64,000 bases of DNA, taken from positions 3,042,546-3,106,545 of the forward strand of contig NZ_CP032157.1 of the NCBI RefSeq assembly GCF_003555545.1. The letters are read 5' to 3'. A model generated the notes under the pieces. That model made no database searches, had not been told where the DNA came from, and worked only from the letters and a program-made list of their open reading frames with translations. This document shows, one piece after another, positions 16,729 to 64,000 of the stretch; the first letter of the stretch is position 1; every line of letters begins with the position of its first letter. This DNA is from Paraflavitalea soli (lineage in GTDB: Bacteria; Bacteroidota; Bacteroidia; Chitinophagales; Chitinophagaceae). The position numbers were made by a program, and so were the translations under genes.

Positions 16729-16730
16729 GT

Positions 16731-17815: not shown

Positions 17816-17818
17816 GAA

Positions 17819-17950
17819 GACAGGAGACAGAATACAGCATACAGAAGCCTTTGTTTAGAAAGCAGAAGCCCTAAATTCATGGATCCTGCCTTATACCATG
17901 GCCTCCAAGGTTCAGATTCTGTATTCTGTCTCCTGTATTCTGTATTCTCC
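17819..17950. repeat. Long inverted repeat after the second amidase gene
   Basis: Arm 1 (17819-17848) has the words ACAGGAGACAGAATACAG. Arm 2 (17915-17950) carries the reverse complement, CTGTATTCTGTCTCCTGT, with more TGTATTC words. The loop is about 66 bp. It lies directly after a stop codon and before the MCE promoter. Confidence 0.65.
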
Positions 17951-17963
17951 CCTCGTAATTCCT

Positions 17964-17971
17964 TATTTTTG
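17964..17971 (+). promoter_or_regulatory. Bacteroidota -7 element for the MCE gene
   Basis: TATTTTTG, a perfect match to TAnnTTTG, sits 76 bp before the start codon at 18048 and just after the inverted repeat that follows the previous gene. Confidence 0.45.
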
Positions 17972-18047
17972 TTGATAATATACTTTTTGGGGGTGGTCTC
18001 AAACAGACTGCTGAAAAAAGTGTTATTTGCTCACAAAATAGCCTGTA

Positions 18048-19037: not shown

Positions 19038-19047
19038 AGACAATAAG

Positions 19048-21409: not shown

Positions 21410-22537
21410 TCAATTGGCAGGGGCTTCCCCATTTTTATCGATCAGGGTAATCTGATCAATAATCTTCTGCACGGTATTTCGCCAGGTGAATTGCTGCAAG
21501 GCAAAAGATTGCGCGCCGGCCCCCATGGCAGTAAGCCTGCCGGTATCGGACATCAAATTACTCAATACGCCTGCTAACCGTTCCGCATCGGGTGAATCGA
21601 TCCCTACACCAAACTTACCGTAATGGGATAGTTCAGGAAAGCTGTTGCGGTTCAAACCTACGATGGGCATTTTACACAACATGGCTTCTATATACACCAA
21701 TCCCCATGGCTCGTTGATAGCAGGCATCAGGAACAAGCTGTGGCTATTAAAAAGCTCCTGCAACTGGCCAATGGACAGAAAATCATAGGCAGTGATATTG
21801 GGATGACTGGCCATTTGCTGGTACTTCTTTTGCCCAACGATGGACAGGTGCATATCAGGATGTTCGCGGAGGGCCTTTTTAAATGCGTCCAGGACTATGA
21901 ATCCTCCTTTATCTTCAAACCTACCCTTGGCGGCAAATAATATCTTCTTCTGTCTGTAATCCTTCTGACCAAAAAAGGGTTTGATAACACCAGGCCCCGT
22001 ACCCACTACGGTAATTTTGGAAGGATTGACATGGTAATGATTGATCAGGTTCTCTTTAACATATTCGCTGATGGGGAAAATATGTGTAGCCTGTGCAAAC
22101 GAAAGCTGTTCCAGTTCTTCACACAGCTTTATGATCCGTTTGGAATACAAGTGCCTGAAGGTGGAATGTGTAGACCACAGATCCCAGGTAGAATCGCAAT
22201 AAATATAATGATACTGGCCTTTGGGGAGCTTTCTGAATGGCAGGTCGCCGGTGCCAAAATGCAATGTATGGTTTGAGACTGACCTGCGGGTATTTTTGAC
22301 AGATGTGGCAGCATTTATCTGCCTTACGGTCCTGCTTCTTCTCTCCCAGCCCGGCTTGACATTGTAATACAAAGCGCCGGTAAATTTCAGGAAACGGCTC
22401 AGCAGGGTATTCTCATCGGAAGAAAAAGCGGAGGCGAGGTTATCATTGGCCTCCAAAACCTTTAAAATGTTGTAGGGTGTACCTGACCACACTTTGGGAT
22501 TATGCGGATTACCAATACCACATATATTGATCTTCAT
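21410..22537 (-). CDS. Glycosyltransferase, family 4 type
   Basis: A 375-residue GT-B-fold glycosyltransferase. The C-terminal half has the GT4 donor-binding pattern: AAKGRFEDKGG, the HPNITAYDFLS turn, and the E-x7-E motif NEPWGLVYIEAM at about residues 290-302. It would transfer a sugar from a nucleotide-sugar donor. It lies 9 bp downstream of a UDP-galactopyranose-mutase-like gene at the end of the NRPS-PKS series, so it may glycosylate the peptide product; a role in surface polysaccharide is the alternative. There is no signal peptide, so it is cytoplasmic or loosely membrane-bound. Confidence 0.82.
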   Translation of the reverse strand: MKINICGIGNPHNPKVWSGTPYNILKVLEANDNLASAFSSDENTLLSRFLKFTGALYYNVKPGWERRSRTVRQINAATSVKNTRRSVSNHTLHFGTGDLPFRKLPKGQYHYIYCDSTWDLWSTHSTFRHLYSKRIIKLCEELEQLSFAQATHIFPISEYVKENLINHYHVNPSKITVVGTGPGVIKPFFGQKDYRQKKILFAAKGRFEDKGGFIVLDAFKKALREHPDMHLSIVGQKKYQQMASHPNITAYDFLSIGQLQELFNSHSLFLMPAINEPWGLVYIEAMLCKMPIVGLNRNSFPELSHYGKFGVGIDSPDAERLAGVLSNLMSDTGRLTAMGAGAQSFALQQFTWRNTVQKIIDQITLIDKNGEAPAN

Positions 22538-22546
22538 AATTAAGAT

Positions 22547-23806
22547 TTAGTTTACTTCTTTAACCAGTTCCATTTTTTGCTTCAGTTGGTTTACCAGGTC
22601 CATACTACGTTTTATACAAACATCCATATTGTAATATTGCCACTCACCAAATCTTCCCAATGTAGCCATGCCCGCTTGCTGCAGATAGGCTTGTATGCGT
22701 TGGGTAGCAGCAGCATAATTTTCATCAAATACTACATAAGCATGATCGGATACATGGTAGTCGAGCGGACGGATCAAAAAAGGATCCTGTTCGGCACTTT
22801 TCACCATGCGTTCCCGGGATATTTCGCCTACGGCTTCGATAATGGAGAAGTTCCTGGCGGGCGAAAAAAACGACCCGATATGGATATACCGATGAAACAG
22901 GCTGTCGGGGGAGGGAATATAAGTCCAGGTATTATTGGTGGGCATTGTTTCCCAAAGCATGGTGGTCACCTTATTATACCTGAGTTGGCCGGCCATCTCC
23001 AGGATGCCGGGCGGAGTACCTGTTATTAAGCCGGGTAAAATATCGAGCGGCAGTGTGCTCACGATCATATCATAGGTCCTGGAGCCATTAACTATCCATT
23101 GCCGACGGCTTTTATCATGGTGGATATGGTTTACGTTGAACCCGTACTCAATATTTAACCCATCGGCCAATGCATCAATAAATGTATTCTGGTCATTAGA
23201 GTTGGGATAATAAAAGCTGGCATGTGGCATCTGATCATTGGCCTGCCCGATCAATCCTTTGAAAAAGGATTGTTTATCAGGCAGGGGTAACTTCCCTTCC
23301 ACCCATGCCGGGCTCATTTCCCGGGGATGCCTGTTCCATATTTTGGTATTATAGGGTATGAAGTAGGCTTCGGCCAGGGTATGGCCAAACATCTTTCTGA
23401 ACCAGTCTTCGAGGGAAGCATAAGACCTGTCATCAACAGCGTTCAGAAAGTCCTTTGTGATGTTTAAAGCGAGATCGGGTGCAAATGCATGGATCTGCTT
23501 AACAGCAAATTCGATAGGATATAGCACTTCATGATCCAGCAGCTTTATTACAGCGCGCCTTTGCACGCTATGCCATTGGTCTTTACTGAGTACCTGCTCA
23601 AAGACAAACCGCAGGACTTCAGGATACTTTGAATTAAAACAATGCCCTCCTGTAGGATGCCAGGTAACACCCTCCACGGTCCTTGTTCTGGCGATGCCAC
23701 CATGAACCTGGTTTCTTTCCAGTATTTCAACGTCAAAATGACCTGCAGCCAGTTTAGCAAAGCTACAACCAGCAATACCTGCTCCTAAAACACCAATTCT
23801 CTTCAT
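22547..23806 (-). CDS. FAD-dependent oxidoreductase, UDP-galactopyranose mutase-like
   Basis: A 419-residue flavoprotein. The N-terminal dinucleotide-binding motif GVLGAGIAGCSFA (residues 5-17) is followed by an acidic strand end (EILERN) and the GG-containing segment HGGIARTR. TGGHCFNSKYPEV corresponds to the substrate-loop region of UDP-galactopyranose mutases, and YPIEFAVKQI to the motif that follows it. UDP-galactopyranose mutase makes UDP-galactofuranose. This protein is related but divergent, and a protoporphyrinogen-oxidase-like or other amine-oxidase-like role cannot be excluded. It is directly followed by a glycosyltransferase gene, which favours a sugar-related job. Confidence 0.6.
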   Translation of the reverse strand: MKRIGVLGAGIAGCSFAKLAAGHFDVEILERNQVHGGIARTRTVEGVTWHPTGGHCFNSKYPEVLRFVFEQVLSKDQWHSVQRRAVIKLLDHEVLYPIEFAVKQIHAFAPDLALNITKDFLNAVDDRSYASLEDWFRKMFGHTLAEAYFIPYNTKIWNRHPREMSPAWVEGKLPLPDKQSFFKGLIGQANDQMPHASFYYPNSNDQNTFIDALADGLNIEYGFNVNHIHHDKSRRQWIVNGSRTYDMIVSTLPLDILPGLITGTPPGILEMAGQLRYNKVTTMLWETMPTNNTWTYIPSPDSLFHRYIHIGSFFSPARNFSIIEAVGEISRERMVKSAEQDPFLIRPLDYHVSDHAYVVFDENYAAATQRIQAYLQQAGMATLGRFGEWQYYNMDVCIKRSMDLVNQLKQKMELVKEVN

Positions 23807-23827
23807 GGTATTTATTATGAAAGTCGG

Positions 23828-24529
23828 TTAGTGGGAAATAGACTTAGTCAATAAGCCTGGAAACAAAGAGCCAATACATTGCTGGAGGTTGATATACCTG
23901 GGTGCAGGCGGTGTGTCTGCCAGGCCGGTAAAGGCGACGGCTGTGGCATATGCTCTATCCATTTCTATGGATACAATGCTCCATTGTTCTCCTTCTACAG
24001 CTATTATATCATCCGTTACATCTATAGCAGCAAGCGGCAGGGATAGCCCCTTCCCTATTGCTTTCACGACAGCTTCTTTCCTTGCCCATAACCTGTAAAA
24101 CAAGGCGTCATCCTTAGCTTCCTGCAAAGCATTCCACTCCCGCCCGCTGAATACATTGGAATAATCGTCGATATACAGAGGCTTCATGATCTCGATATCA
24201 ACCCCTATTTTTCCGCTTTCGGTAAATGCCAACAAGGTATAATTGCCCGAATGGGTAATATTGAAGTCAACGGGGTAATTAAAATAAGGCCGGTTGAAGG
24301 AGGTGTATTGAAGATCGGCCAGGGAGAGATGCTGATCCAGGCCTGTTTCTTTCAGTGCCTTCAGCAATAATAGCTTGCCTGAAAAGGTAAGCAACCTGTC
24401 TTCATCGTACTTATACCTTACTATCCCTTCCCGCACACTTTCCGGAAAAAAGGGCAACACGCTGTGCATCCAGGGCACTGCATCCGGACTATTGACGGCT
24501 GCAGTATAATACAGTAATGGAGTCGCCAT
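23828..24529 (-). CDS. 4'-Phosphopantetheinyl transferase (Sfp type)
   Basis: Activates carrier proteins by moving phosphopantetheine from coenzyme A to the Ser of T and ACP domains. The 233-residue protein has the two-lobe Sfp length and the family motifs: FNITHSGNYTLLAF, the Mg-binding IGVDIE at about residues 112-117, and FYRLWARKEAVVKAIGKG at about residues 150-167. It is in the biosynthetic series and should activate the T/ACP domains of the assembly line. The ATG at 24529 is three bases after the stop of the preceding gene; a GTG at 24532 is also in frame. Confidence 0.93.
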   Translation of the reverse strand: MATPLLYYTAAVNSPDAVPWMHSVLPFFPESVREGIVRYKYDEDRLLTFSGKLLLLKALKETGLDQHLSLADLQYTSFNRPYFNYPVDFNITHSGNYTLLAFTESGKIGVDIEIMKPLYIDDYSNVFSGREWNALQEAKDDALFYRLWARKEAVVKAIGKGLSLPLAAIDVTDDIIAVEGEQWSIVSIEMDRAYATAVAFTGLADTPPAPRYINLQQCIGSLFPGLLTKSISH

Positions 24530-24532
24530 CAC

Positions 24533-26143
24533 TCAGGCGAATTTCCTTTTATCGTATAATATCTCCTTTTCTCCATACAATCGCTCTGCGATCATACCGC
24601 GCGAAGTGCACTCGGCTATCAGCTTATCGGATTGGATAATGGGATTGGATTCCTCTGTATATTTTATACTGCTGATAAATTCCAGCCAGGGCTCCTGCCC
24701 CATGGCATATACATAAATTTCACCCGGCTGGAACAGGTCGACCAACACGATGCCTTTGTTGTAATCAGACCCTGACAGTCTTCTGCTGCCATCCTGATCC
24801 CGGGGGATTTTCTTCGGCATCAGTGGCCCGTAGAGCCAGCTCAGGGGCGCTCCATCGCACTCCATGCCCAGGAACACCACATCCACATTGCCGATCTCCC
24901 TATGTATGTGTTTATACAAGGCAGGTTCAATAACTCTTGAATCGGCCATGAATAACAGGCTGAACTGGTCTACCCGTACATGGTAACAAAGTTTACACAG
25001 GATATTGAGATCGCTGTGCTCACCAGTAAAGGGAAGGCCAGTAATGGTAATATCTTCAAACTGGATGGTTTCCATTTCATCCAGTTCTATTACGTCGTTG
25101 AAACCAATATTGTTAAACATCAGTTTCAGGTTGGGGTCTTCCAGCCTTCCGCCACGGGTACGTGGTACAATAATATTTTTGACCTTATGCCTCAATGGCA
25201 ATAAGGTCTCAAACAGAATATGATCCTGGTGATTGTGGGTGATCATTACATAGTCGATGGTATCGGGCAGGTCGATATCGGAAAAGTGCTCCAGGTCGGA
25301 GTGATAGCCATAATAGCTGATCACGGGATCGAGCAGAATACTCAGGTTTTTGGTTTCTACCAGGATGCATGCATGGCCGAAATAACGCATGCGCACCTTA
25401 TCGCCGGTATATTTGCTATAGGCAGCCGGTGTCTCCTCTGTAAAAAGGGTTTCGAACAAGGGCTCCTGCTTCGGAGATATACCCAATAAGGATTTGATAT
25501 AACCAATCGGTTGTGGCGATCGTTTCATTTTGGCCAGTTCGTCTATACCTGGATGGCTAAATGGTATATCCAACCGTAGCACATCCGGCTCTGCCAGCCT
25601 GGGTGTACTGAGGCAAAAGGGACGATGGTCGTTATTGGTGATCCATAAAGCTATGCTTTGCGCCGACTGGTCATAATATTTGCTTTTGTACAGCAAGGAC
25701 TCAAAGAACCTGAAGGAAGGATTATTGTGAAGGTCATAATACAGTTCTACATACCCTTGTAAGGGCTCTGGCACTTTCTTATACAACTCTTCCATTGAAT
25801 AACCCTTTGCTTCGTTCTGCAACAGGGTGTCCAGCGCCCGGATGGCTTTGGTAAGCTCAAACATGGCGGCCCTTTCTGTATGGGTATTTTGCATCAAGGC
25901 GGTAACCTCTTCAATGCGGCCACCATTGAAATCCATAAAGGGGCCGCCTCTCATTTTTGCATTTAATACTGCCTGTGCATGGGCCTCGGGATTGGCCAGG
26001 TAAGACTCCATGATATCCATATGCCGCTTTACCACATTCATAGCTGCCGTTGCGGGCGATATCAGGTGTGGCCAGGCATACCAGGAATCTACCAGTGGCT
26101 CTATAACCACGTTGGGCTTGAGGTATACTACACGATTATCCAT
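24533..26143 (-). CDS. Metallo-beta-lactamase-fold protein, CmlA-like candidate hydroxylase
   Basis: A 536-residue protein with a ~245-residue N-terminal helical domain, followed by a metallo-beta-lactamase fold with the HxHxDH motif HNHQDH (residues 303-308), then GEHSD (Glu375) and ADS (Asp401). This size, the two-domain layout and Glu in place of the usual third His are features of CmlA, the diiron enzyme that beta-hydroxylates carrier-bound amino acids; as I recall CmlA numbering, the metal residues match with a constant offset of two. However, no His occurs after residue 414, where the last metal ligand is expected, so the second metal site may be altered. The call as a hydroxylase is inference; an uncharacterised hydrolase is the alternative. 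Confidence 0.6.
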   Translation of the reverse strand: MDNRVVYLKPNVVIEPLVDSWYAWPHLISPATAAMNVVKRHMDIMESYLANPEAHAQAVLNAKMRGGPFMDFNGGRIEEVTALMQNTHTERAAMFELTKAIRALDTLLQNEAKGYSMEELYKKVPEPLQGYVELYYDLHNNPSFRFFESLLYKSKYYDQSAQSIALWITNNDHRPFCLSTPRLAEPDVLRLDIPFSHPGIDELAKMKRSPQPIGYIKSLLGISPKQEPLFETLFTEETPAAYSKYTGDKVRMRYFGHACILVETKNLSILLDPVISYYGYHSDLEHFSDIDLPDTIDYVMITHNHQDHILFETLLPLRHKVKNIIVPRTRGGRLEDPNLKLMFNNIGFNDVIELDEMETIQFEDITITGLPFTGEHSDLNILCKLCYHVRVDQFSLLFMADSRVIEPALYKHIHREIGNVDVVFLGMECDGAPLSWLYGPLMPKKIPRDQDGSRRLSGSDYNKGIVLVDLFQPGEIYVYAMGQEPWLEFISSIKYTEESNPIIQSDKLIAECTSRGMIAERLYGEKEILYDKRKFA

Positions 26144-26159
26144 AATATTTTATTTATCA

Positions 26160-26603
26160 TCAAACTTCATAGGCAGTTTCGGGCATAGGTGTTTTCACCT
26201 TCTCTTTGCTTTGACTGTGTTTACGGCCGCGGCCATACTGTGCCATCCATTTGGTAAGATGAAAAGCAGCGCCTGTACATAAAAAAGCAGTCACGGTATT
26301 TACCACAACAGCCCCCAATATGATCAGGAACGGGGACAGAGAGAAGTTGATAGAAAAAGCCTTTAACTGCTCTTTATTCCAAATCACTACAGCAAACAGA
26401 CCGGCAATGATGATCTCGGCCAGCAATACTTTCACGAGGACGTAACGGTCTGCAGGCAACAAGACAGCCAGCCCTATACCAAGGATGGCATAGAATAAGA
26501 TACTAAGCCAACCGGTTAAGAAAAAATGGCTGGCCAGCAGCAGCAGGAAGGCTATAGCATACAGCGTATACCGCCTGTTTTGTATAGGTGTGTTGTTATT
26601 CAT
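26160..26603 (-). CDS. Small multi-spanning membrane protein of unknown function
   Basis: A 147-residue protein with about four to five hydrophobic segments (around residues 12-30, 33-48, 55-73 and 88-112) and a basic, Lys-rich C-terminal tail. I recognise no family. Its start overlaps the end of the acylase gene by 8 bp and its stop is 16 bp before the CmlA-like gene, so it belongs to the biosynthetic operon. A role in export, immunity or membrane anchoring of the pathway is possible but unsupported by sequence. Confidence 0.6.
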   Translation of the reverse strand: MNNNTPIQNRRYTLYAIAFLLLLASHFFLTGWLSILFYAILGIGLAVLLPADRYVLVKVLLAEIIIAGLFAVVIWNKEQLKAFSINFSLSPFLIILGAVVVNTVTAFLCTGAAFHLTKWMAQYGRGRKHSQSKEKVKTPMPETAYEV

Positions 26604-28941
26604 GAGAAAAAGCTATTTTTTGTTGTATGGAAGATAGTTTTGAAGGATCGCTTACAAACTGGGTTTCATGCAAGCGGTTTTCTTTCCAGGCCTGCAGTTG
26701 CTGAAAGTACCTGTTATCATTCATCCTTCCGGTCTGGCCGGTGGCATTTACCATCCAGGACCTGATAGCGCCTGCTTTTAATTCCACCACCGTCCGGATA
26801 ACAGGATGGGCTCCATAATTCACATTGATCGTATTATCATTGCCTCCAATGCCATTCACTGATTTCTCAAAGCCGGGCAAGAAGGTCAATTGGGGGATAT
26901 TAAAACTATAAGCCTGTGCGGGGGATTGTTGGTACTGCTTATTACCGGCATATATTGAATCTGCCGCTTTTACCAGTCTTTCAAAATAATACCGTGCATC
27001 CAGCCGGCCACCTGTGTAAGTAAGGGTATCGGTATGCAAGAGGAAATTAATGGTTTGATCAAAAGAGGGCTGGGCTTTTACGCCAAGTTGAACAGCCATT
27101 TCTTTTGCAATGGCGCGGGTGGCCTGCCTGAATGACCTGAAGAAAGTGCTTTCCTTGGTACCAGGTGTAATTTTGCCATCCCATTTCATCAGGAGGTCCC
27201 AATTGGCACCAAAGCTTTTTTCTTTCCCATACTTCACCAGCAGCTTTTTACAATCGGCTACTGATATATCCGAAACATCCAGCTGCATAGTGCGCATATC
27301 TTCCCAGGTCAACTGACTTCCTGTTGACAATAACTCGTCGATGCGCCTGGGCCGATACAGGTCGCTGAACCAGCGGGACGAAAAATAATATTGATCGGGG
27401 CCTGGTTCCTGGTTGGCAGAGAACAAATAATCCTTTGCGGGGTTGAATGCCTGCGGCAAGGAGTCGAACGGAACATAATCCCTTCCAGGTGATACTTTCC
27501 CATCCAACAAACCTCCCGCATAGTTAGCGGGTTTTATGGGCATTTTACCCGCGCAGATGATCCCTATATTTCCGTCCAGATCACCATATACAAAATTCTG
27601 GGCCGGATAGTCATACAATCGCAGCGCATCACGAAAGTCATTCCAACCTGCAGCCCTGATCAATTTCCAGAAGGCCTGCACAGCGCCACCCGATTGAAGG
27701 GGATGCCATTTAAGTCCATAGCCTATCCCTTCTTTTTCCTTGTACTGTCCGAAAACGGTGTACCGGGCAGTGGTTTTTACAGGGGCCTTATCTTTTACAT
27801 TGATCGTGAAATCTTTTGTAGTCATGGTCTGCCACTTCCCATCCAGCCAGTAATTGTTCTTATTGGCTGAATCAATTTTGAGCATATATTGTTCGGTAAC
27901 ATCCCATTCGCCGTTGGTAATGCCCCAGGCGATCTTTCCATTATGCCCTGTTACGATCACGGGCACACCGGGTATGGAATACCCATACACATGTACCTCT
28001 TTGCATACCAGCTGCATTTCATAAAATATATTGGGCGAAACAAGCATCAGGTGCAGATCATTTGACAACAGCACTACTTTGGAACGGGTGCGGGAGGTAC
28101 CAACCACCCAATTATTACTGCCCAGGCTTCTGTTTACCGGGGCGGATTGGTAATTATTGACCTGGGATGGTTGAAACAAACTAACCACGCCATTCGCCGG
28201 CAAGGGGGTACGTTTGCTTCCACCTGCTACTGGAATAATATAAGGGTATTCTACCGTTTGAGCAGGATACAAAGCCTTTCTTACGGAATCCGGTACCTTA
28301 TCCAATACTTCCTGCCTGTTTACATAATCATCATAATATGTGAGGTCGGAACTCATGTACCATTGAATAAGAAACACATACCAGGCTTTCCAGGTTCCTG
28401 GGGAATAATGCCATACGGTATACAAAGGATCACGCTCCGGAACCTTCTCTGCACTTATATAAGCATTAACGCCTTTTTCATAGGCATTGAGATAATTGTA
28501 CAAGTCGGGGTTGGTCAGCTTCAGGCTATCAAACAAGGCCATGGCGCGGGTCTCCATTTCGAAGGGCCGCCAATGCCTGTCCGATCTGACACCCGGCTCT
28601 CCCAGTATTTCAGCCAGCCGGCCCATCATAGAATAGGCCATCAGCTCCATCTGAAAATACCGGTCGCGTGCATGCATGTATCCAATAGCATAGGCCATCG
28701 CATTCATGTCTTTTCCAAAAATGTGGGGAATGCCCAATGTATCTATGCTCAGTTCCGCGCCTTCAAAAGAAGTTTTGATCGTTTGCGGGTGGTGCAGATC
28801 CAGTGGCTTTTTGCTCAATAAACCGGCATTGTAATTGGCTAAGTTCTGTAATGAATTGAGTCCGCTATAATGCAGGGACGTAAAATAGATCCAGGCCCCG
28901 GCCAATACGAAAAAGATGGCTGTGAAAATTATTCGTTTCAT
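26596..28941 (-). CDS. Penicillin-acylase-type Ntn hydrolase (PvdQ-like role proposed)
   Basis: A 781-residue protein with an N-terminal signal anchor (residues 4-22), so it acts in the periplasm. It is made as one chain that should cut itself before the nucleophile Ser at about residue 275 (in SLGSNNWVVG), giving alpha and beta subunits. The following segments, LLSNDLHL, GVPVIVTGHNGKIAWGITNG, and the late NVNYGAHPVIRTVVEL, are typical of the family. Family members remove acyl groups from amines: penicillin G acylase, acyl-homoserine-lactone acylase, and PvdQ, which trims the fatty acid from pyoverdine precursors. Location beside a PvdE-like exporter points to deacylation of an exported lipopeptide. 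Confidence 0.82.
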   Translation of the reverse strand: MKRIIFTAIFFVLAGAWIYFTSLHYSGLNSLQNLANYNAGLLSKKPLDLHHPQTIKTSFEGAELSIDTLGIPHIFGKDMNAMAYAIGYMHARDRYFQMELMAYSMMGRLAEILGEPGVRSDRHWRPFEMETRAMALFDSLKLTNPDLYNYLNAYEKGVNAYISAEKVPERDPLYTVWHYSPGTWKAWYVFLIQWYMSSDLTYYDDYVNRQEVLDKVPDSVRKALYPAQTVEYPYIIPVAGGSKRTPLPANGVVSLFQPSQVNNYQSAPVNRSLGSNNWVVGTSRTRSKVVLLSNDLHLMLVSPNIFYEMQLVCKEVHVYGYSIPGVPVIVTGHNGKIAWGITNGEWDVTEQYMLKIDSANKNNYWLDGKWQTMTTKDFTINVKDKAPVKTTARYTVFGQYKEKEGIGYGLKWHPLQSGGAVQAFWKLIRAAGWNDFRDALRLYDYPAQNFVYGDLDGNIGIICAGKMPIKPANYAGGLLDGKVSPGRDYVPFDSLPQAFNPAKDYLFSANQEPGPDQYYFSSRWFSDLYRPRRIDELLSTGSQLTWEDMRTMQLDVSDISVADCKKLLVKYGKEKSFGANWDLLMKWDGKITPGTKESTFFRSFRQATRAIAKEMAVQLGVKAQPSFDQTINFLLHTDTLTYTGGRLDARYYFERLVKAADSIYAGNKQYQQSPAQAYSFNIPQLTFLPGFEKSVNGIGGNDNTINVNYGAHPVIRTVVELKAGAIRSWMVNATGQTGRMNDNRYFQQLQAWKENRLHETQFVSDPSKLSSIQQKIAFSHE

Positions 28942-28966
28942 ATGATTGTATTTGATCAAAGGCAGT

Positions 28967-33179: not shown

Positions 33180-33190
33180 GTGTTTGAGCT

Positions 33191-34948: not shown

Positions 34949-34992
34949 TTCAAAAATTTGATAGTGATGAAGAATGAATTGTATAGACTGGA

Positions 34993-49714: not shown

Positions 49715-49742
49715 AAGCAGAAGTTGAAATAGCTGACAAGGT

Positions 49743-50804: not shown

Positions 50805-50825
50805 ATGGCAGGTTATTAATGATTA

Positions 50826-56800: not shown

Positions 56801-58790
56801 TTAAATGATCAGCATCGCTCAGCAGTACGACCTGTACACCCGTACCGCTATCTTGTATGCGCCCCTGGTGATCGGCTGTTGTAATCACCACCTGGCAGGC
56901 TGTATCTTTTAAAATATAAGCAATATGGTCGGAGGGGTAAGCCGGATCTACAGGCACATAGGCGCATCCGGATTTCAGGACGCCAAGCAATGCTACGATC
57001 ATGTCGACCGACCGGTCAATACAAACAGGCACCGGCGAACCGCCGGGAATAGACAGTAAACGCAGGTACGCTGCCAATTGATCGCTTCGCTTGTCCAACT
57101 CTTCATAGGTCAGCTCCGTATTTTCAAAAACCAGGGCAATTTCATGCCTCCTTTTCAATACCTGCTCTTTAAACAGGTCAACCAGCGTATGGCCCACGGG
57201 ATACGCTTTCGTCACTGTGCCCCATTGCAGCAGCTCAGTCTTTTCAGCTTCCGGCAAATAATCCAATGCATACAGCGGTAATACCGGGTCCGAAACCGCT
57301 GCTAGCAACAACTGACGGTAATGGGTTATTAACCTTTGTATGTCTTCAATTGTATAGATGGATGTATTGAAATCAATATCCATGCGCAAGCCATCGGCCT
57401 GCTCGGTAAAAACGACCTGCAGATCAAACTTAACAGCGCAGGCTCCTTTATCAACTATTTCCGGTGTAAGGATGTGACCGGGCTCCTGCATTGACGGCGT
57501 GCTTTTGCCCTGCTGACTTTGCAACACCATCATCACATCAAACAATACCGACCGGCTGTTATCACGTTTTAAGCCAAGATCGGTCACCAGCCTGTCAAAT
57601 GGATAGGCCTGGTGTTCATAAGCGCCCAACGTTGTTGTACGAATGCCTTGCAATAATTCTGTGAAACTATGCTTACCATTGAAACGGGTGCGTAAGGGTA
57701 AGGTATTGAGGTAAAAACCGATCTGGTTTTCCAGATCAGCATGTTCACGTCCGGCAACCGGTGTTCCTATAATAATATCTTCCTGGCTGGTATACCGGTA
57801 AAATAAAGTATTGAGCACGCCCAATAGTCCCATAAACAAGGTGGCTTGCTGCCCATGGCATACAGTACGGAGCTGTTCTGTAAGATCTTTATTGATAACG
57901 GCTGATAACTGGTGTCCATCAAACGACAACAACGCCGGACGTTGATGACTGGCAGGCAGGTCCAGTACAGGCAGTTCTCCTTCCAGCTGCGACAGCCAAT
58001 AAGCCTGATGGCCTTTTAGTTTACCGGTCCGTAAAGCTGCCTGCTGCCAGGCAGCATAGTCTTTGTATTGTAAGGCCAGGGCTGGCAATGCACCTGCATT
58101 CCCCTGCACCTGCGCATGGTAGTAATGTAATACCTCATTGCCCAGTATTTCCATGGATACACCATCACTGATGATATGGTGTACATTGTAAAAGAAAATA
58201 TAATCTTCAGGACCCGTGCGGATCAGGTCAGCCAAAAACAAGGGGCCTTTTTCAAGATCAAATACTGTTGCAGACCGGCTGCTTATATAAACATCAATAT
58301 CCGCAGGTGAAGCATCTGTCAACTCCTGGTATCCTACTGTAAAGGTGAAGCTGGCTGAAGGGATCACTACCTGCCGCAATTCTCCGCCTTCCGTTTCTTT
58401 GAATACTGTCCGCAATATTTCATGCCGGTCAACCACTTTCCGTATCGCAGCTTCAAAAACAGCGGGGGTATAACTTCCTTTCAGCACTACCCGGTTGGGC
58501 ATATTGTAAGCGCGTGAAGCTTCTTCCAGCTGGCTTACGATCCATAACCTGCGTTGTCCGTCTGACACCGCATAGTCAGCGGCCTCCTTAACTGCCGGTA
58601 TATGGAGATAAGCACGCTGTCCGCCATATTGATTTAAGTAATGGATAAGCGCTGCTTTATGCAGGCTGATCTCCTGGATGATCTCGTCGGGGATTGAAGC
58701 CCCTGTATCCGTAAAACTCACTTGCAGGTCCGTACCGGCTACTACCAGCGATATATTTTTTTCAGCAAGCCTGTTTATTAACTCAAGCAT
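50826..58790 (-). CDS. NRPS, two modules with epimerisation domain
   Basis: A 2654-residue synthetase. Order with approximate residues: TubC-like docking domain 1-60; C1 (HHIISDG, 203), A1, T1 (GGDS, 1077), E (HHLVVDG, 1260, with EGHGRE and VGWFTT); C2 (HHILMDG, 1733), A2, T2 (GGHS, 2593). By alignment to GrsA, A1's specificity residues are DVWHISLIDK, one residue from the classic Ser code, so Ser is strongly predicted and the E domain makes it D-Ser. A2's residues are DLTKIGEVGK, an Asn-type code. C2 fits a D-upstream, L-downstream condensation domain. No release domain is present, so the chain passes on to the next NRPS. It follows the PKS stop by 10 bp. Confidence 0.94.
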   Translation of the reverse strand: MLELINRLAEKNISLVVAGTDLQVSFTDTGASIPDEIIQEISLHKAALIHYLNQYGGQRAYLHIPAVKEAADYAVSDGQRRLWIVSQLEEASRAYNMPNRVVLKGSYTPAVFEAAIRKVVDRHEILRTVFKETEGGELRQVVIPSASFTFTVGYQELTDASPADIDVYISSRSATVFDLEKGPLFLADLIRTGPEDYIFFYNVHHIISDGVSMEILGNEVLHYYHAQVQGNAGALPALALQYKDYAAWQQAALRTGKLKGHQAYWLSQLEGELPVLDLPASHQRPALLSFDGHQLSAVINKDLTEQLRTVCHGQQATLFMGLLGVLNTLFYRYTSQEDIIIGTPVAGREHADLENQIGFYLNTLPLRTRFNGKHSFTELLQGIRTTTLGAYEHQAYPFDRLVTDLGLKRDNSRSVLFDVMMVLQSQQGKSTPSMQEPGHILTPEIVDKGACAVKFDLQVVFTEQADGLRMDIDFNTSIYTIEDIQRLITHYRQLLLAAVSDPVLPLYALDYLPEAEKTELLQWGTVTKAYPVGHTLVDLFKEQVLKRRHEIALVFENTELTYEELDKRSDQLAAYLRLLSIPGGSPVPVCIDRSVDMIVALLGVLKSGCAYVPVDPAYPSDHIAYILKDTACQVVITTADHQGRIQDSGTGVQVVLLSDADHLIAVPVDGTAAVQANDLAYVIYTSGSTGRPKGVMMEHAGVVNRLRWMWEHYAFDHTDVILQKTSFTFDVSVWELFMPLCLGCKMVLCNKEVVSDPGSIADLIFRHGVTCLHFVPPMLDAFMHDLFDRAYNIRFLSSLKRVIASGEALSLASVQKWYSKMQAPLCNLYGPTEAAIDVTYFDTDARIDKVFIGKPVANTSLYVLDDHMRLVGTGVPGELYIGGIQVARGYLNNPLLTASRFVDDPVKKEGKLYRTGDLTRWDSSGNIEYIGRLDNQVKIRGYRIEPGEIEQVMLLSGLVKQAVVVPQNDGSQGKCLVAYLVPQGGEGIAVIRDYLLSKLPSYMVPAYFVAMDSLPVLPNGKINRKLLPAPAITGVPAAVSYAAPANDTERVLLEVYQLVLKRTLPGGVKDSFFESGGDSIKAILLAGKLKQHGYKVSTRDILKYPVLEDMAKWVQRSGQEQPAQAIIEGDSTLTPIQQWLLSKSFVNKHHFNQSVLLHSKLRIDAGIVQQSLLELVKHHDVLRSVFVQDQQRWKQSIKGVERNSVTMEVHDLVSVADPIAAMASLSEQLQASINLLTGPLLKAAIFRLPDGDRLLLIIHHLVVDGVSWRILLEDLPVLYEQLSKGDTIQLPAKTVSFQQWAKQLKLYSESEAITQELPYWSAVAEYRTDGLRADWPEGSNLSKDSSSITVRLNETLTTSLLTEINQVYNTRVDDILLTALAMAVNASFEKPHLLVGLEGHGREEIIKEVDISRTVGWFTTLYPVLLDIHSAKDIVNGLVLVKDQLRKVPNKGIGYGIARYLLAEKPAALQQEEQRFDVLFNYLGDLGAGVSNATGAELFSYAKEGKGHDVDGGYEQESHMTVNAAVIQGSLQLGIRYSREQYKRETVEGFAASYEQQLKKLIDLLRHTPDRYLTPGDLSFKDLKMEDLILLNAHKDVEDVYELSPLQEGIYYHWQKESDSTAYVNQMSFRLSGQIDILLIKKSYEYLMRRHDVLRTSFHHEYENRHLQAVRKVAEPDFHYLEVPVHADKEEFIADYKTQDRKRGFDLAKASQMRLTVVMAPDNAYEFVWSFHHILMDGWCSGILIKEFFIIYKSLLRGEEPRLGKVFPYVNYINWLAGQPRESTLSYWGNYLAGYDGLAEVPFKKTLAKKSTATVEEVQFTLSPEEVIAMRTLCNGLQVTENTFIQSVWGYLLSRYNNTRDVVFGTVVSGRPGELEGIDQMIGLFINTVPVRLQYTGTESVKDLLQAMQQQAIGTMPHHYAPLPDIQSQVRAGGHLFDHIVVFENFPVEDIIKKGVHETQSGEIRSLSSKVIIESNYAFTLQVLPEASGMKISFIYDPSVLEKGSIVQIKNHFENAIRNFVARPDLPVSKIDYLSDEEYKTLLEVYNDKVVSYPRQTILTDLKQVTAAHTAAIAVSYGATQLSYGTLDNLSNKVAHCLATVYNVQPGDLVGILIDRSEWAVVLILGILKAGAAYVPIDPAYPESRIDFIARDSRCRMIIDSGKLQDIRQALSAYPEDTVVAREVTVHDLAYVIYTSGSTGNPKGVMINHGNLYNYLSFSQEKYFNRPDKRYLAPLFTSLSFDLTVTSLFGPLLCGGELVIYPQAMNVLDILTDIFYGNRKINFLKCTPAHIFLLHNVTGFHTAIDQLIAGGEELTATHIALLKSINPSIEIYNEYGPTETTVGTVVATIPAAAGAMDYPPGEAIPIGKAITNTRLYVVDQQVGLLPAGIKGELCIGGASVSKGYLHNELLTARKFMEDPYWPGEQLYRTGDVVSWLPDGNMAYHGRMDDQVKIRGYRVEPGEIEQVLASYQDVLNTAILVHTAADGEKELIAYLVAAEKLNMTQVREYLSHKLPAYMVPGRFMQLDSIPLTVNGKVDKKKLPAPTDEAVPVTDEQPVQPMNDVEKRLVAIWQELLGLKGQEIGTRDNFFELGGHSIKAIKILSRISKEFGVVISIQKMFEKPTIEHLASEIMNVTWFKAERKADTQTTNERIKL

Positions 58791-58800
58791 ATAGGATCGT

Positions 58801-61800
58801 TTATATGGTAATCACTTTCAGTTCTTTGTCGGCGGTATGCACCGTATTGATCTTCTTAAGGCTTTCGATCAGCTGGATCTCTGCAGCATATGATTGCACC
58901 GTAAGATTTTTGAAGAAAAAGTCGATGGGCAGCTCAATGCCAAATTCCTTATGGATCTTGCGCGATAAGGTCATTGCTTTCAGGGAATCACCGCCCAGGT
59001 CCAGGAAATTGTCCAGCACACCGATCTCGCGGATATTCAGCACCTCGGACCACAATCCCACCAGCTTTCTTTCCACTACTGTGGCAGCAGGCAGATAGTC
59101 CACTGTCAAAGCTGGTCGCCCGGTATCAAATACCTCCGCATCTTTTACCACCGCAGGCATCTGCCGGTTTTTCCCCATATATTTTTCGAGACGGTATTCA
59201 AGATCATAAACCGAAACAGCCAGACGGCCCTGGCCAAGGGTTTGCAATGACCGCTCAAATACTTCGCACAGCTCAACCGGGTTGATCCCTTTGTCCCCAT
59301 GCGCCCCACCCAATGCCAGTCCATCCAGGTTCACACTCAACCAATTTCCCTGCTGCTCATTTTGCAGGTCGATAAAATGGTCCATAAAGCAGTTGGCAGA
59401 TGCGTAGGCATTGTAGCCAAGTCCCCCCACTGCTACAGAGAGGCTGGAAGTGGCCCAGAAAAAGTCGGGCGCTTTATCTCTGAATATCTTTTGTAAATGC
59501 ATCGTGCCTGTCACCTTCGCAGCAAAGAGCCGGTGCACCTGTGCGGTGTCTGTGGATTCGATCAGCGAGAAGTATTCGCGGGCCGTATCACCCGCCGCAT
59601 GTATAACTCCATTGATGGGACCTGCGGTTGCTTCTGCCTGCCGGATCACCGTTTCCAATAACGGTTGGTCTGTAATATCAGCTGCATAATAAGCTACGCT
59701 TCCGGGTAGTGACTGCAATTCCTCTAGGTCCTGTAGTTTCCGGGTCAATGCGGAATCGCTTCCTGCCACCGGGTCGAAAGATCCTTTCAGGGAGAGCTCA
59801 CTACGGCCAATCAGTACTACATGGGCTTCATATTGTGTCAATAAATGCCTGGCAAGGCATATACCTACTTGTCCCAATCCGCCTGTTATAAGATACGTAC
59901 CTTTCTTTTTGATCACCTTCGTGCCATTCCTTTGAAGAGGCATAGGTTGATAACTATTTACCCATCGTCTTTTATTCCTGAGTGCTACCGTAATATCCTG
60001 TTCATTACAGCATAGTTCCTTATAGATAAGCGGTACGGCCTTTACGCCGTCCTCCGGTGATATATCGATATGACTACAGAAAAAGTAAGGATTCTCCTGC
60101 GACCAAACCCTTAGCAGACCAATGGCCGTTGAGGCACCTACCTCCCTGTTGCCGGCGGCATTACCAATAGCATACATATCAGTGGTAATGAAATAAAGGG
60201 CAGCCTGTGTAGAGGTACCATGAATACTTAATCCTTTGTATAAATGCAGCAAATTGAAGTAATCTGTCCAGGCATCCGGACTACTCCAGGTATAGATGAT
60301 CTGATCCATCACGAAGCCCTGCTGAAGCAGCCAGTTTCCCAACTGCTCATAATCCTCCCTGGCCTCGTGGTTGATCATGCAAATACCAGGCTCCTGTGTT
60401 TCAAAATGACGGCCTTTTCTTACCTCCATCACGGCATGGCCCTTTTCTATCAGCAGCCGTTTTAGCGCCATACTACCCTCACTTTCATCCGTCAACAACA
60501 AGTAATTTTTGATTGCCTCCTTTTTAGCTTGATTGTCCAGCAATGGACTTTCTTTCCAGGAGGGTATATAAAACCAACTGGCTATATCTTTTTGTTTTGT
60601 ACCCTGTGCCATTACCGGCCTGGCATTATTATGCGCTAATGGATTGACCGCAACCGGGAAATGGTATTGATCAAACTGGTAGCCCGGCAAAGAGACGACC
60701 TGCCTGTTTTCTTTTTGATCGGCAGCATCCCAGTTCACAGCAACACCCTGCATCCATAACTGGCCCATTTTCTCCAGGAAAAAATAGTCGTCGGCAATCC
60801 TTTCGGGTGAACGCCTCACCAAATTGAAGGGTGCATACTGATGGCCACCGGCTTTACTGATCTGCCTGCAAAATCCGGCCAACGTATTACCAGGCCCTAC
60901 TTCAATACAAACAAGGTTGCCCATGGCCAATATCCCTTGCAGTCCTTCACTGAACCGGACCGTTTCCCTGATATGCCTGCCCCAGTAGGCAGGTTCCAAT
61001 ACTTCTTCACCAGCCATATTGCCCGACACATTGGATACAAAGGGGATTTGTGGTGCAGAGAGTCGCATTGTCGTCACCGTCTTTGTAAATTCATCTACTG
61101 CCGGGTCCATCATTGCTGAATGAAAAGCATGAGATGTTCTGAGCCTGGCAACAGGGATCTCCGCCGCCGCCAGTGTATCCGATAGTGCTTGTATAGCTTC
61201 ATAACTGCCCGCCACTACACAGGAATCAGGCGTATTAATGGCAGCCACGGCTATATCCTCCTGCAGGTAGTTAGTGATCGAAGCTACCGGGCATCCAATG
61301 GCCAGCATAGCTCCGCCGGCTTGCGCACCCATCAAACGCGCCCTCGCCACTACCAGGCGGATGCCCTCTTCAAAAGAAAACATACCACTGATGCACGCAG
61401 CCGTCAACTCTCCAATACTGTGGCCGATCATGAGATCCGGCTGTATGCCCCAATGGGCCAGCAATTTGGCCAGCGCATATTCAAAGATGAATAGCGCAGG
61501 CTGCGTATAGATCGTATGATTGATCGTATCATTTTCTTCTCCAAACAGGATTGGGAAGAAGTCTTCACCCGTCAGCTTTTTCAATTGGCTGAACCCTTCC
61601 TCCATCGCCACTTTAAAAACGGGAAACTGATCATACAACCCCTTCCCCATGCCCCGGTACTGGGCCCCCTGGCCCGTGAACATAAAAATGATAACGGGTT
61701 TAGCGCCGTTGTCTACCAGCGCCCCATCGTTTTTTTGAATACTATTAATGGTAAGCGTATCCTTGTCATACAGGAAGCAATGCCTGTATTTAAAATGTTT

Positions 61801-63249
61801 TCGCCGCTGCTGCAACGTAAAAGCTGCATCGGCTATATTGCTTTCGTAGCGTGGCCACTGCGCTGCTAACTGAGCCACTTGTTTTTCCAGCGACGACAAG
61901 GTCCTGGCAGAACAGGGTAACAAAAAATGCCGCTGTTCTTTCTTTGCAGATCTGCCTTCCGGTGCTTCTTCCAACACCGCATGTACATTCGTCCCTCCTA
62001 TTCCAAAAGAACTTACCCCTGCCCGCAAAGGCATGCCTGCTTGTCCCTTCCAGGAACGCAGGGTATTGTTTACATAAAATGGTCCGTTGTTGAAATTGAT
62101 GTCCGGATTGGCCTCCGTAAAATGCAGACTTGGCGGTATCTCTTTATGCCATAGCGACAAGGCTGTTTTAATAAGTCCTGCAATACCAGCCACCGTATCC
62201 AGATGGCCTATGTTTGATTTTACGGACCCTATAGCGCAATACTTTTCCGTTTGATTGCCAAAAGCATGGTTCAATGCTTCTATTTCGGCAGGATCACCCA
62301 GTTTGGTAGCTGTTCCATGCGCTTCTATATAGGAGACCGTACCGGGATCGATACCCGCCAGTTTATGCGCCAGCATGATACAGGCAGCCTGTCCCTGTAT
62401 GCCCGGCGCTGTATAACCCACTTTGCGACTGCCATCATTATTAACAGCCGAAGACTTGATCACCGCATAGATTCGGTCCTGGTCTTTCAAGGCTTCCTCC
62501 AGCCGCTTCAATACCACTATACCCACACCCTCTCCTGCCATCGTACCCGAGGCATCTTTATCAAAGGTCTTGCAATGCCCATCGCGTGAGGCGATCATTC
62601 CTTCATAGTACTTATAGCCCGGCTCTGTAAGCGTTGAGATACGCACCGCGCCGGCAATGGCCATATTGCATTCATTCATCAGTAGGTTACGGCAGGCAAT
62701 ATGGATCGCTGCCAGTGAGGTAGAACAAGCCGTGTCGATAAAATAAGCCGGACCTCTCAGGTTTAGTTTATAAGCCAGTAAGCTGGCTACATAGTGTCTT
62801 GAAGAGATCTTATCCGCCATAAAAGGCGCCACATCACTTTCCGCCGCTTTTACAATACTGTGTGCGATCCAGTTGAGGTTATCCGACGCTCCTGCAAACA
62901 CCCCTATCTTCCCCTCGTAACCAAAGGGATCATATCCTGCATCTTCCAGCGCCAGCCAGGCGTTTTCATGAAAAAGCCTGATCTGCGGGTCCATCAGCGC
63001 CCCTTCTTCGCGCGAGTACCCGAAAAAAGGTGCATCAAAAGAATCCTTCCCGTCAATAACAGAACGGATCTTAATATAGGCCGGATCATCCATGGCTTGT
63101 TGATCAAGGCCCGATTGCAAAATTTCTTCTGCAGTGAGGAAATGGACAAGCTCCTTCCCCTGCCGCAGGTTATCCCAAAACGCGGCCAGGTTGCCGGATT
63201 TAGAAAACCTGCAAGACATTCCAATAATGGCAATATCCTTCTTGCTCAT
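58801..63249 (-). CDS. Type I polyketide synthase module, KS-AT-KR-ACP
   Basis: A 1482-residue single module. KS: active-site Cys in DTACSTS (about residue 172), His in EAHGT and NIGH. AT: GHSIGE nucleophile (about 610) and HAFH, which in known ATs marks malonyl-CoA. KR: GGLGQVG (about 1123) and the S-Y-N residues in SSLSVA and GYNAYAS; the LDD signature of B-type KRs is absent. ACP: GGDSLKA (about 1419). There is no DH, ER or methyltransferase. It should add two carbons to the upstream aminoacyl chain and reduce the ketone, giving a beta-hydroxy-gamma-amino acid. The ATG at 63249 (MSKKDIAIIGMSCRF) is chosen because it gives the standard KS start. Confidence 0.94.
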   Translation of the reverse strand: MSKKDIAIIGMSCRFSKSGNLAAFWDNLRQGKELVHFLTAEEILQSGLDQQAMDDPAYIKIRSVIDGKDSFDAPFFGYSREEGALMDPQIRLFHENAWLALEDAGYDPFGYEGKIGVFAGASDNLNWIAHSIVKAAESDVAPFMADKISSRHYVASLLAYKLNLRGPAYFIDTACSTSLAAIHIACRNLLMNECNMAIAGAVRISTLTEPGYKYYEGMIASRDGHCKTFDKDASGTMAGEGVGIVVLKRLEEALKDQDRIYAVIKSSAVNNDGSRKVGYTAPGIQGQAACIMLAHKLAGIDPGTVSYIEAHGTATKLGDPAEIEALNHAFGNQTEKYCAIGSVKSNIGHLDTVAGIAGLIKTALSLWHKEIPPSLHFTEANPDINFNNGPFYVNNTLRSWKGQAGMPLRAGVSSFGIGGTNVHAVLEEAPEGRSAKKEQRHFLLPCSARTLSSLEKQVAQLAAQWPRYESNIADAAFTLQQRRKHFKYRHCFLYDKDTLTINSIQKNDGALVDNGAKPVIIFMFTGQGAQYRGMGKGLYDQFPVFKVAMEEGFSQLKKLTGEDFFPILFGEENDTINHTIYTQPALFIFEYALAKLLAHWGIQPDLMIGHSIGELTAACISGMFSFEEGIRLVVARARLMGAQAGGAMLAIGCPVASITNYLQEDIAVAAINTPDSCVVAGSYEAIQALSDTLAAAEIPVARLRTSHAFHSAMMDPAVDEFTKTVTTMRLSAPQIPFVSNVSGNMAGEEVLEPAYWGRHIRETVRFSEGLQGILAMGNLVCIEVGPGNTLAGFCRQISKAGGHQYAPFNLVRRSPERIADDYFFLEKMGQLWMQGVAVNWDAADQKENRQVVSLPGYQFDQYHFPVAVNPLAHNNARPVMAQGTKQKDIASWFYIPSWKESPLLDNQAKKEAIKNYLLLTDESEGSMALKRLLIEKGHAVMEVRKGRHFETQEPGICMINHEAREDYEQLGNWLLQQGFVMDQIIYTWSSPDAWTDYFNLLHLYKGLSIHGTSTQAALYFITTDMYAIGNAAGNREVGASTAIGLLRVWSQENPYFFCSHIDISPEDGVKAVPLIYKELCCNEQDITVALRNKRRWVNSYQPMPLQRNGTKVIKKKGTYLITGGLGQVGICLARHLLTQYEAHVVLIGRSELSLKGSFDPVAGSDSALTRKLQDLEELQSLPGSVAYYAADITDQPLLETVIRQAEATAGPINGVIHAAGDTAREYFSLIESTDTAQVHRLFAAKVTGTMHLQKIFRDKAPDFFWATSSLSVAVGGLGYNAYASANCFMDHFIDLQNEQQGNWLSVNLDGLALGGAHGDKGINPVELCEVFERSLQTLGQGRLAVSVYDLEYRLEKYMGKNRQMPAVVKDAEVFDTGRPALTVDYLPAATVVERKLVGLWSEVLNIREIGVLDNFLDLGGDSLKAMTLSRKIHKEFGIELPIDFFFKNLTVQSYAAEIQLIESLKKINTVHTADKELKVITI

Positions 63250-63265
63250 AAGGTGACCATGAAAA

Positions 63266-64000
63266 TTATTCTTCAAATAGCGTAAGTGCATCGTCCAGCT
63301 GTTGCCCGGCCTCTTCTTCCACCTGCGCAAAGGGTGAAACATAGACTGGTTCTGTAAAACCATGCCGGGCCAGCTCTTTTACGTTTGCGTATTCAAATAA
63401 GGTGACCACTTTCAGGTTCTGCTGAAGCCGCTCATTGATCAGACCGGCCATTTTTACCAACAGCAGCGAATTGGCGCCAAGGTCAAAGAAGTTATCCTCT
63501 GTACCAATATCCGTGGCATTCCTGCCAAGTACAGAAGCGATGATCTCGATCAGTCTTACTTCCGTATCAGTAACCGGCGCAGTATATTTTACAGCGGCAA
63601 CCGGCAATACACCGGGCAATTTGCCCATATCGATCTTGCCGTTCTTATTAAGGGGAAATTGTTCGATCAATACCAACTGGGCAGGTATCATATACCCGGG
63701 CAGGTATCTTCGTAGGTGTACCTTTATGTCTTCAACCGACAGATCCTTATTGCCTGTGAGGTAAGCGACCAGTTCTTTATTGCCTGGCACCGGTTCGTAC
63801 ACCACCACCTTAGCCCCCTCTACCCCTGCCCACTGCAACAAGGCATTTTCTACCTCGCCCGCTTCAATACGGTAGCCGCGTATCTTGATCTGGTCATCTA
63901 TACGACCCAGGTATTCAATAGCGCCATCGGGCAGCCACCTGCCCAGGTCGCCCGACTTATACAAACGCGTGCTTTGCCCGATCTGATGGTCAATGAATTT
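63266..64000 (-). CDS. NRPS, C-terminal fragment (A-T), 5' end outside window
   Basis: This frame is open to the window edge, so only the last ~244 residues are visible. They contain the end of an adenylation domain (RLYKSGDLGRWLPDG, then RIDDQIKIRGYRIEAGEVE) and a carrier domain with the serine motif LGANSLLL near the C-terminus, followed by a short acidic tail. The residue normally Gly before the Asn/His/Asp of the carrier motif is Ala here (GANS rather than GGxS). The gene ends 16 bp before the PKS start, so it hands its aminoacyl chain to the PKS. The substrate-binding part of the A domain is outside the window. Confidence 0.88.
   Translation of the reverse strand, partial: KFIDHQIGQSTRLYKSGDLGRWLPDGAIEYLGRIDDQIKIRGYRIEAGEVENALLQWAGVEGAKVVVYEPVPGNKELVAYLTGNKDLSVEDIKVHLRRYLPGYMIPAQLVLIEQFPLNKNGKIDMGKLPGVLPVAAVKYTAPVTDTEVRLIEIIASVLGRNATDIGTEDNFFDLGANSLLLVKMAGLINERLQQNLKVVTLFEYANVKELARHGFTEPVYVSPFAQVEEEAGQQLDDALTLFEE

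Follow-up and report, generated by a model that had tools for sequence, protein, structure and literature searches.

A 65-kb hybrid NRPS-PKS operon of Paraflavitalea soli with an unusual tailoring set that includes a carbamoyltransferase and a tandem SGNH-TPR protein

A NodU-type carbamoyltransferase (GvgF) and an SGNH/esterase-type protein (GvgA) belong to the core of the gvg clusters for 4-formylaminooxyvinylglycine (FVG) in Pseudomonas WH6 and Pantoea BRT175. In the available parts of the sources, gvgA, gvgB, gvgC and gvgF make up the core of the gvg cluster variants (PMC8064604), gvgA, gvgC and gvgF code for a lipase/esterase, a haem-oxygenase-like protein and a carbamoyltransferase and are all needed (PMC8067088), knock-outs of gvgA and gvgF lack activity (PMC8067088, PMC8064604, PMC4010436) and pnp1B of Pantoea is an SGNH gene (PMC4010436). 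As far as these partial texts go, gvg-like clusters including the aldgamycin alm genes have the same kind of core. In the family Chitinophagaceae, the available part of the chitinopeptin report describes non-ribosomal peptide synthetase (NRPS) clusters of Chitinophaga eiseniae, C. flava and relatives, with beta-hydroxylated products for which a CmlA-like mechanism was proposed (PMC9248904). Here we describe an operon of Paraflavitalea soli, also of the Chitinophagaceae, which joins NRPS and polyketide synthase (PKS) genes to a core that, by description, resembles that of gvg, and to an exporter and an acylase reminiscent of pyoverdine maturation (PvdE, PvdQ). It lies in a stretch of 64,000 nucleotides (the window, NZ_CP032157.1 3042546-3106545, G+C 48%) from a single-contig genome of 8.44 Mb; coordinates above 64000 continue the window numbering rightward into flanking sequence.

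A block of minus-strand genes extends from 21410 to the right edge of the window and runs off it, as stated in a preliminary description of this DNA. That description counted sixteen genes spaced by about -8 to 44 bp; we count 15 (14 whole and one cut by the edge), and with the longest open reading frame (ORF) starts the gaps range from -142 to 87 bp, the long overlaps being due to start-codon choices. Beyond the edge, the operon continues to ~ 86927 with the remainder of NRPS1 and four more genes, reaching 65.5 kb and 19 genes, all on the minus strand. The NRPS/PKS/NRPS core, two hydroxylases, carbamoyltransferase, tandem SGNH protein, PvdE-like exporter, UDP-galactopyranose mutase (UGM)-like flavoprotein and glycosyltransferase foreseen earlier were all recovered, and the reading as one hybrid NRPS-PKS operon with unusual tailoring is supported. 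We read this operon as directing the synthesis of a decapeptide with one malonate unit, which would be tailored, exported and deacylated and is probably an antibiotic, and we give this model as a whole a probability of roughly 0.55. The genes are, in order of transcription:

86418-86927, minus: UpxY-family NusG paralogue (NF033644, 106.8 bits, above the cut-off of 100)
83980-86349, minus: MacB/FtsX permease
81984-83888, minus: GT51 transglycosylase
80717-81964, minus: GT1 glycosyltransferase
63266-80482 (63266-64000 in the window), minus: NRPS1, 5738 aa, five adenylation domains and one epimerisation domain, module 1 opening with a condensation domain
58801-63363, minus: PKS module KS-AT-KR-ACP, malonyl-type AT, motifs HAFH and GHSIG, KR with Ser/Tyr/Asn
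50826-58790, minus: NRPS2, C-A-T-E, C-A-T
49743-50804, minus: TauD/VioC-type Fe(II)/2-oxoglutarate oxygenase (PF02668, 135 bits; H129-x-E131)
37337-49789, minus: NRPS3, TubC dock, C-A-T, C-A-T, C-A-T-E, terminal C (five condensation, three A and three T domains, TubC_N)
35694-37478, minus: cyclic-peptide ABC exporter of PvdE/SyrD type (TIGR01194, 332.9 bits, above the cut-off of 286.2)
34993-35694, minus: type II thioesterase (PF00975, 123 bits)
33191-35041, minus: NodU/TobZ-type O-carbamoyltransferase (PF02543, 258 bits; PF16861, 240 bits; DHHSSHA; true start probably ~ 34948)
28967-33103, minus: tandem SGNH-TPR protein, 1378 aa (unit 1, 30911-33103; unit 2, 28967-30910)
26596-28959, minus: Ntn-hydrolase acylase of the penicillin amidase family (PF01804, 460 bits)
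26160-26603, minus: small membrane protein, 147 aa, hydrophobic stretches by eye
24533-26143, minus: CmlA-type diiron beta-hydroxylase (PF18456 CmlA_N, 312 bits; HNHQDH motif at residue 303)
23828-24532, minus: 4'-phosphopantetheinyl transferase (PF01648, 55 bits)
22547-23806, minus: UGM-like FAD oxidoreductase (PF13450/PF01593)
21410-22537, minus: GT4-family glycosyltransferase, the last gene (PF00534, 71.5 bits)

The assembly line comprises ten NRPS modules, with 5, 2 and 3 adenylation (A) domains in NRPS1, NRPS2 and NRPS3 respectively, and one PKS module; condensation (C), A and thiolation (T) domains and a KS-AT-ACP module are found on co-directional genes, as in a hybrid NRPS-PKS. NRPS1 was examined by motif. 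Condensation-type motifs (HHxxxD[GA]) number 6, 3 and 5 in the three synthetases, 14 in total, in agreement with the domain counts, and epimerisation (E) domains were assigned after modules 3, 6 and 10 from position and motif. No thioesterase domain was found in NRPS2 or NRPS3, the latter ending in a C domain. In module order the PKS, which we take to have a malonyl-type AT from HAFH and GHSIG and a KR from Ser/Tyr/Asn, acts between modules 5 and 6. The A-domain codes were read by hand with position rules, the final K being assumed by convention, and the residue names were likewise assigned by hand, not by a tool; in modules 3 and 9 the FDxS motif is irregular and positions 235-239 were placed by eye. 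On this basis we take module 1 (DTESIGTVCK) to be Lys-like, modules 3 (DASKLGHIGK) and 9 (DSSKIGHIGK) to be Asp-like, module 4 (DAYVVAAVCK) to be aromatic-like, modules 5, 7 and 8, which share DLTKIGEVGK, to be Asn and module 6 (DVWFISLIDK) to be Ser-like; modules 2 (DALFLGQVMK) and 10 (DSWDVGLIGK) are given no residue name.

Among the tailoring enzymes, the CmlA-type protein has its nearest solved chains in 8a90 and CmlA itself (4jo0). Of the periplasmic acylase proposed earlier, the enzyme family stands: it has an N-terminal membrane anchor (by eye), an intact SNNW nucleophile (G280-S281-N-N-W) and a residue 281 that corresponds in alignment to the first residue of penicillin acylase beta chains. 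Its likeness to PvdQ is weak (NF051460, 66.3 bits, below the cut-off of 950), and among solved structures it comes closest to D-succinylase and penicillin G acylases. As in pyoverdine maturation, the locus combines a TIGR01194 exporter with an Ntn acylase, but this acylase is closer to D-succinylase and penicillin G acylase than to PvdQ, and no fluorophore genes were seen. An acylase-based pattern search for named relatives returned four stretches, none of them a relative. The UGM-like protein matches UDP-galactopyranose mutases of the PDB weakly (best E 5e-15) and falls below the cut-off of the mutase family TIGR00031 (44.8 against 303.75 bits). Its use as a cluster marker was abandoned: matches at E 1e-30 turned up in 8 of 294 family genomes, the sole close one (60%, G153) lying in a Wzx/Wzz/MBOAT polysaccharide locus, and no match at this threshold was obtained in the four other genomes of the genus. 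The 147-aa membrane protein matches no Pfam or NCBIfam family.

The carbamoyltransferase carries both the N- and C-terminal Carbam_trans domains and the HHxxHA motif of NodU/TobZ O-carbamoyltransferases, and its nearest solved relatives are the novobiocin carbamoyltransferase, GdmN and TobZ. The adjacent 1378-aa ORF holds two SGNH-TPR units that are 44% identical and both keep the SGNH catalytic residues; the Ser, Gly-x-Asn and Asp-x-x-His blocks are invariant in 22 aligned rows, as in the SGNH superfamily, while the tandem protein scores below the cut-off of PF13472 (23.5 against 32.9 bits) and the family has no above-cut-off Pfam or NCBIfam match. An AlphaFold2 model of unit 2 from a 21-row alignment reached a pLDDT of 86.3 and a pTM of 0.88. 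Parts of this model matched, in Foldseek, GDSL/SGNH esterases (1yzf, 4rw0), the TPR proteins AspH and OGT and the beta-sandwiches of BcsB and a CBM35 mannanase, TM-scores to the whole model being low (0.10-0.24 among the 50 matches listed). We read the predicted fold as an SGNH catalytic domain combined with TPR-like helices and a beta-sandwich at the C terminus. The gvg clusters differ in this respect: the SGNH gene pnp1B of Pantoea has only 972 nt and is accompanied by a distinct haem-oxygenase-like gene of 2.1 kb, called gvgC in WH6, whereas the window encodes the 1378-aa tandem protein and has no haem-oxygenase-like gene.

A contig scan with an alignment of both window units and the SGNH-TPR protein of G209, another genome of the family, using the pattern LLGESVARG, gave 27 named SGNH-TPR loci from Bacteroidota, Pseudomonadota, Bacillota, Actinomycetota and Acidobacteriota, which are not all independent because of near copies (L039/L042/L047, L036/L037 and L033/L035). 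In 26 of the 27 a carbamoyltransferase 50-73% identical to that of the window lies upstream on the same strand, the distance from its stop to the start of SGNH homology being at most 285 bp in 24 loci, at most 108 bp in 23 and ~ 1.3 kb in L048 and L049; in the 27th locus, L053, the SGNH gene starts 1.37 kb from the contig end. Conservation of LLGESVARG in these loci is partly by choice since the scan used that pattern; GES[VA]ARG is kept in second copies found by adjacency only (L033, L035, L043 and L050) and in L057, a Streptomyces plasmid locus. The pair also occurs in L057 and in G411, a profile match in a draw of 395 Bacteroidota genomes. In that draw, full-length SGNH-TPR proteins were found in 2 genomes and short partial matches in 9 more; strong matches were obtained in 2 of 244 genomes of the family draw, with a third at E 6e-4, and in 1 of 321 Gammaproteobacteria, the Lysobacter seed itself. 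The carbamoyltransferase-SGNH-TPR pair is rare.

As a control, the best 30 carbamoyltransferase loci of a larger number of matches, from 133 matching genomes among 294 Chitinophagaceae, were inspected with 1.5-kb flanks. SGNH-TPR adjoins all three carbamoyltransferases at 58-100% identity (window included) and none of the 27 at 41-49%; for four of the latter the contig stops within the flank. A tree of 56 carbamoyltransferases places the 28 paired ones, from five phyla, on one side of a single branch with a support of 100/100, and pairing changes once on it compared to a mean of 19 changes in shuffles. The tree warns of three long branches, and its unpaired sampling is narrow since these rows are 27 Chitinophagaceae sequences and the second carbamoyltransferase of L032.

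In flanks of up to 10 kb around the 27 loci (E 1e-5), CmlA relatives were found in five (L030, L036, L037, L038 and L046), TauD relatives in two (L045 and L046) and NRPS matches in 16. A second carbamoyltransferase lies near the pair in L030, L032 and L041, and a scan of chosen neighbours, which is no census, placed asparagine-synthase-like genes directly beside it in L039 and L041; L057 has such a gene (asnB) in the same position. L033, L035, L043 and L050 carry two separate SGNH-TPR genes, and fused units are found in the window alone among the loci. A penicillin-amidase gene stands just ahead of the carbamoyltransferase-SGNH genes in L033, with a weak match at the same place in L035. A constant association of the pair with an N-oxygenase, suggested by a haem-oxygenase-like gene in L052 and luciferase-like genes in L045 and L057, does not hold as a rule, since the window operon showed none. 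In the Burkholderiales loci L052 (1309-13128) and L048, the pair is found in a compact arrangement with ATP-grasp-like genes, a PLP (pyridoxal phosphate) decarboxylase and an amidohydrolase-like gene, with no NRPS match, L052 also holding a haem-oxygenase-like gene. In Chitinophaga sp. YR627, a MACPF/perforin-domain protein (L037:12592-13989) is encoded a short way downstream of the pair.

In the model that we favour, an UpxY-type antiterminator would open the operon and assembly would proceed from NRPS1 through the PKS and NRPS2 to NRPS3. The chain would begin N-acylated on module 1, to judge from the C domain at the start of this module; the operon showed no loading ligase. The E domains would turn the residues of modules 3, 6 and 10 to the D form, a hydroxyl-bearing two-carbon unit would be inserted after module 5, and release would be due to the terminal C domain of NRPS3, not to a thioesterase. 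The CmlA- and TauD-type enzymes would beta-hydroxylate residues, the carbamoyltransferase would carbamoylate a hydroxyl, either on a residue or on a sugar, the SGNH-TPR partner may act on or with the carbamoyl group, and sugars would be added by GT1 and GT4 with the UGM-like enzyme. The exporter would then move the acylated precursor over the inner membrane into the periplasm, where the anchored Ntn acylase would trim its acyl chain, much as happens when pyoverdine matures. The GT51 gene hints at peptidoglycan polymerisation as a target, and the product is most likely an antibiotic. Domains, order, motifs and pairing were read from the sequence; substrates, tailoring order, acylation, release and target are what we infer.

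Other products were considered. A silent or decayed cluster without product is very unlikely, the large ORFs being open and the checked catalytic motifs intact. The operon gene set has a likeness to that of bleomycin, and a glycosylated, carbamoylated hybrid peptide of this kind would account for the NRPS-PKS-NRPS order and for a carbamoyltransferase together with glycosyltransferases; we nevertheless reject it as highly improbable, with no bithiazole expected, because no heterocyclisation or oxidase domain was found and no Cys-like code was seen (NRPS1 by motif only). A siderophore, pyoverdine-like or of hydroxyaspartate type, could be built from the presumably Asp-like modules 3 and 9, which with the CmlA and TauD hydroxylases would give bidentate iron ligands, and its exporter and acylase would be in the pyoverdine style. 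However, no TonB receptor or iron regulator is among the annotated genes of the operon, the TonB/SusC gene at 89238-92420, behind a DeoR regulator, is transcribed divergently, and a carbamoyltransferase, two glycosyltransferases and a GT51 are not usual siderophore genes. According to the available part of one report, the chitinopeptins of Chitinophaga bind iron and contain beta-hydroxyaspartate, but their production is not iron-repressed (PMC9248904). The chitinopeptins have 14-16 residues against the 10 modules here, and no word beginning with 'carbam' or 'glycosyl' appears in the main text of that report (PMC9248904). We regard a siderophore as unlikely.

The pair could also serve self-protection rather than peptide tailoring, carbamoylation masking the product in the cell and the SGNH esterase unmasking it. 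The invariant catalytic residues and the GDSL esterases among the fold neighbours would suit such a role; on the other hand, both enzymes would share one compartment, since no signal peptide was recognised by eye on the window or G209 SGNH proteins, the TPR and beta-sandwich parts suggest docking, and in the available part of the source the SGNH-type gvgA and the carbamoyltransferase gvgF are both required for culture activity (PMC8067088). Masking thus appears improbable to us. A bolder and rather speculative extension of the favoured antibiotic model, which we consider improbable in its entirety, is that carbamoyltransferase and SGNH-TPR form a two-enzyme machine for an undescribed carbamate chemistry (moving, cyclising or otherwise converting an O-carbamoyl group), spread horizontally through five phyla and sometimes found beside asparagine-synthase-like or oxygenase genes; here, the unit would be doubled and fused and would serve a peptide antibiotic directed at peptidoglycan glycosyltransferases, to which the cluster-borne GT51 would give tolerance.

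The operon GT51 has intact motifs (TEDPNFFVHKG, GGSTITMQLA, RKIEE and KKRILEIYLN) and is distinct from the three other GT51 matches of the genome; the four other genomes of the genus gave GT51-domain matches only, none to the rest of the protein, and in 11 other family genomes of the GT51 draw the best match reached only E 4e-24. The gene failed as a cluster marker, the GT51 itself being the only gene shared in neighbourhoods L095-L098; the window exporter and permease also find weak matches (23-24%) in L096.

Several observations weigh against the antibiotic model or its parts. Long GT51 relatives occur in many other Bacteroidota, one over residues 46-611 and others over the final half to two thirds of the protein, with 26-38% identity among the matches listed; because of these relatives and of their neighbourhoods sharing no other gene, the self-resistance reading is weak and was lowered, and a resistant GT51 duplicate is a doubtful, if conceivable, prediction. 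The pyoverdine analogy is confined to the exporter and the acylase, the latter lying far below the PvdQ cut-off. No sugar-nucleotide synthase is found in the operon, and a second promoter may lie in its widest gap, 234 bp between GT1 and NRPS1. The pair family also lacks a sharp border, G315 having a short partial SGNH match (E 2e-11) beside a 46% carbamoyltransferase. Furthermore, the adenylation codes were read by hand, two of the ten are without residue assignment, and the operon is known from sequence alone.

No match to the whole operon or gene set, or to a known product, was obtained in the searches made. In a genus sample of five genomes, the four others gave one close CmlA relative, in a different NRPS-PKS cluster (G214:C15:2315988-2374261, L025-L028), where CmlA (67%), the response regulator (56%), UpxY (49%), type II thioesterase (47%), PKS (41%), exporter (37%), phosphopantetheinyl transferase (35%) and MacB (33%) have counterparts; in contrast, the carbamoyltransferase, SGNH-TPR, acylase, TauD, GT51 and UGM-like proteins have no match there (E 1e-5, 80 kb compared). 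The operon is real, intact-looking and an orphan, ordinary in class and unusual in its tailoring set; that it is not a known pathway, as previously suggested, is not proven.

The operon is preceded by one regulatory gene:

87208-87876: LuxR-type response regulator, 280 bp from UpxY

These 280 bp hold a terminator-like hairpin (read by eye), and UpxY stands 68 bp ahead of MacB. A NusG-like antiterminator heading a 65-kb operon fits the LoaP/UpxY idea. The Bacteroidota-type promoter pattern (TTTG, 16-24 bases, TAnnTT[TC]G) had no match on the minus strand between 20,000 and 89,500. To the left, the GT4 end at 21410 converges on a plus-strand ORF ending at 21408, beyond which envelope housekeeping genes (LptD-like, two N-acetylmuramoyl-alanine amidase, MlaD and OstA/LptD_N-type) occupy 12990-20688 of the window. 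To the right, the divergent DeoR regulator and TonB/SusC-type receptor at 88413-92420 (L002:10959-14966) are probably an unrelated uptake locus. Elsewhere in the genome, a second very large NRPS region (G000:C1:1764802-1836221) gave 16 further adenylation-domain matches.

In the available parts of the literature on carbamoyltransferases, SGNH/GDSL proteins, vinylglycine/gvg, aldgamycin and Chitinophaga peptides, the SGNH-TPR family is not described. What is new in this operon is the carbamoyltransferase-SGNH-TPR pair, which most deserves further study. For the isolation of a new Gram-negative peptide product, the 65-kb orphan operon offers a well-defined starting point, and its GT51 gives a testable hint at the target of that product. 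The pair can serve as a search marker; knowledge of its reaction would account for the presence of these two genes together in clusters from five phyla, and might shed light on FVG biosynthesis, which is still unsolved.

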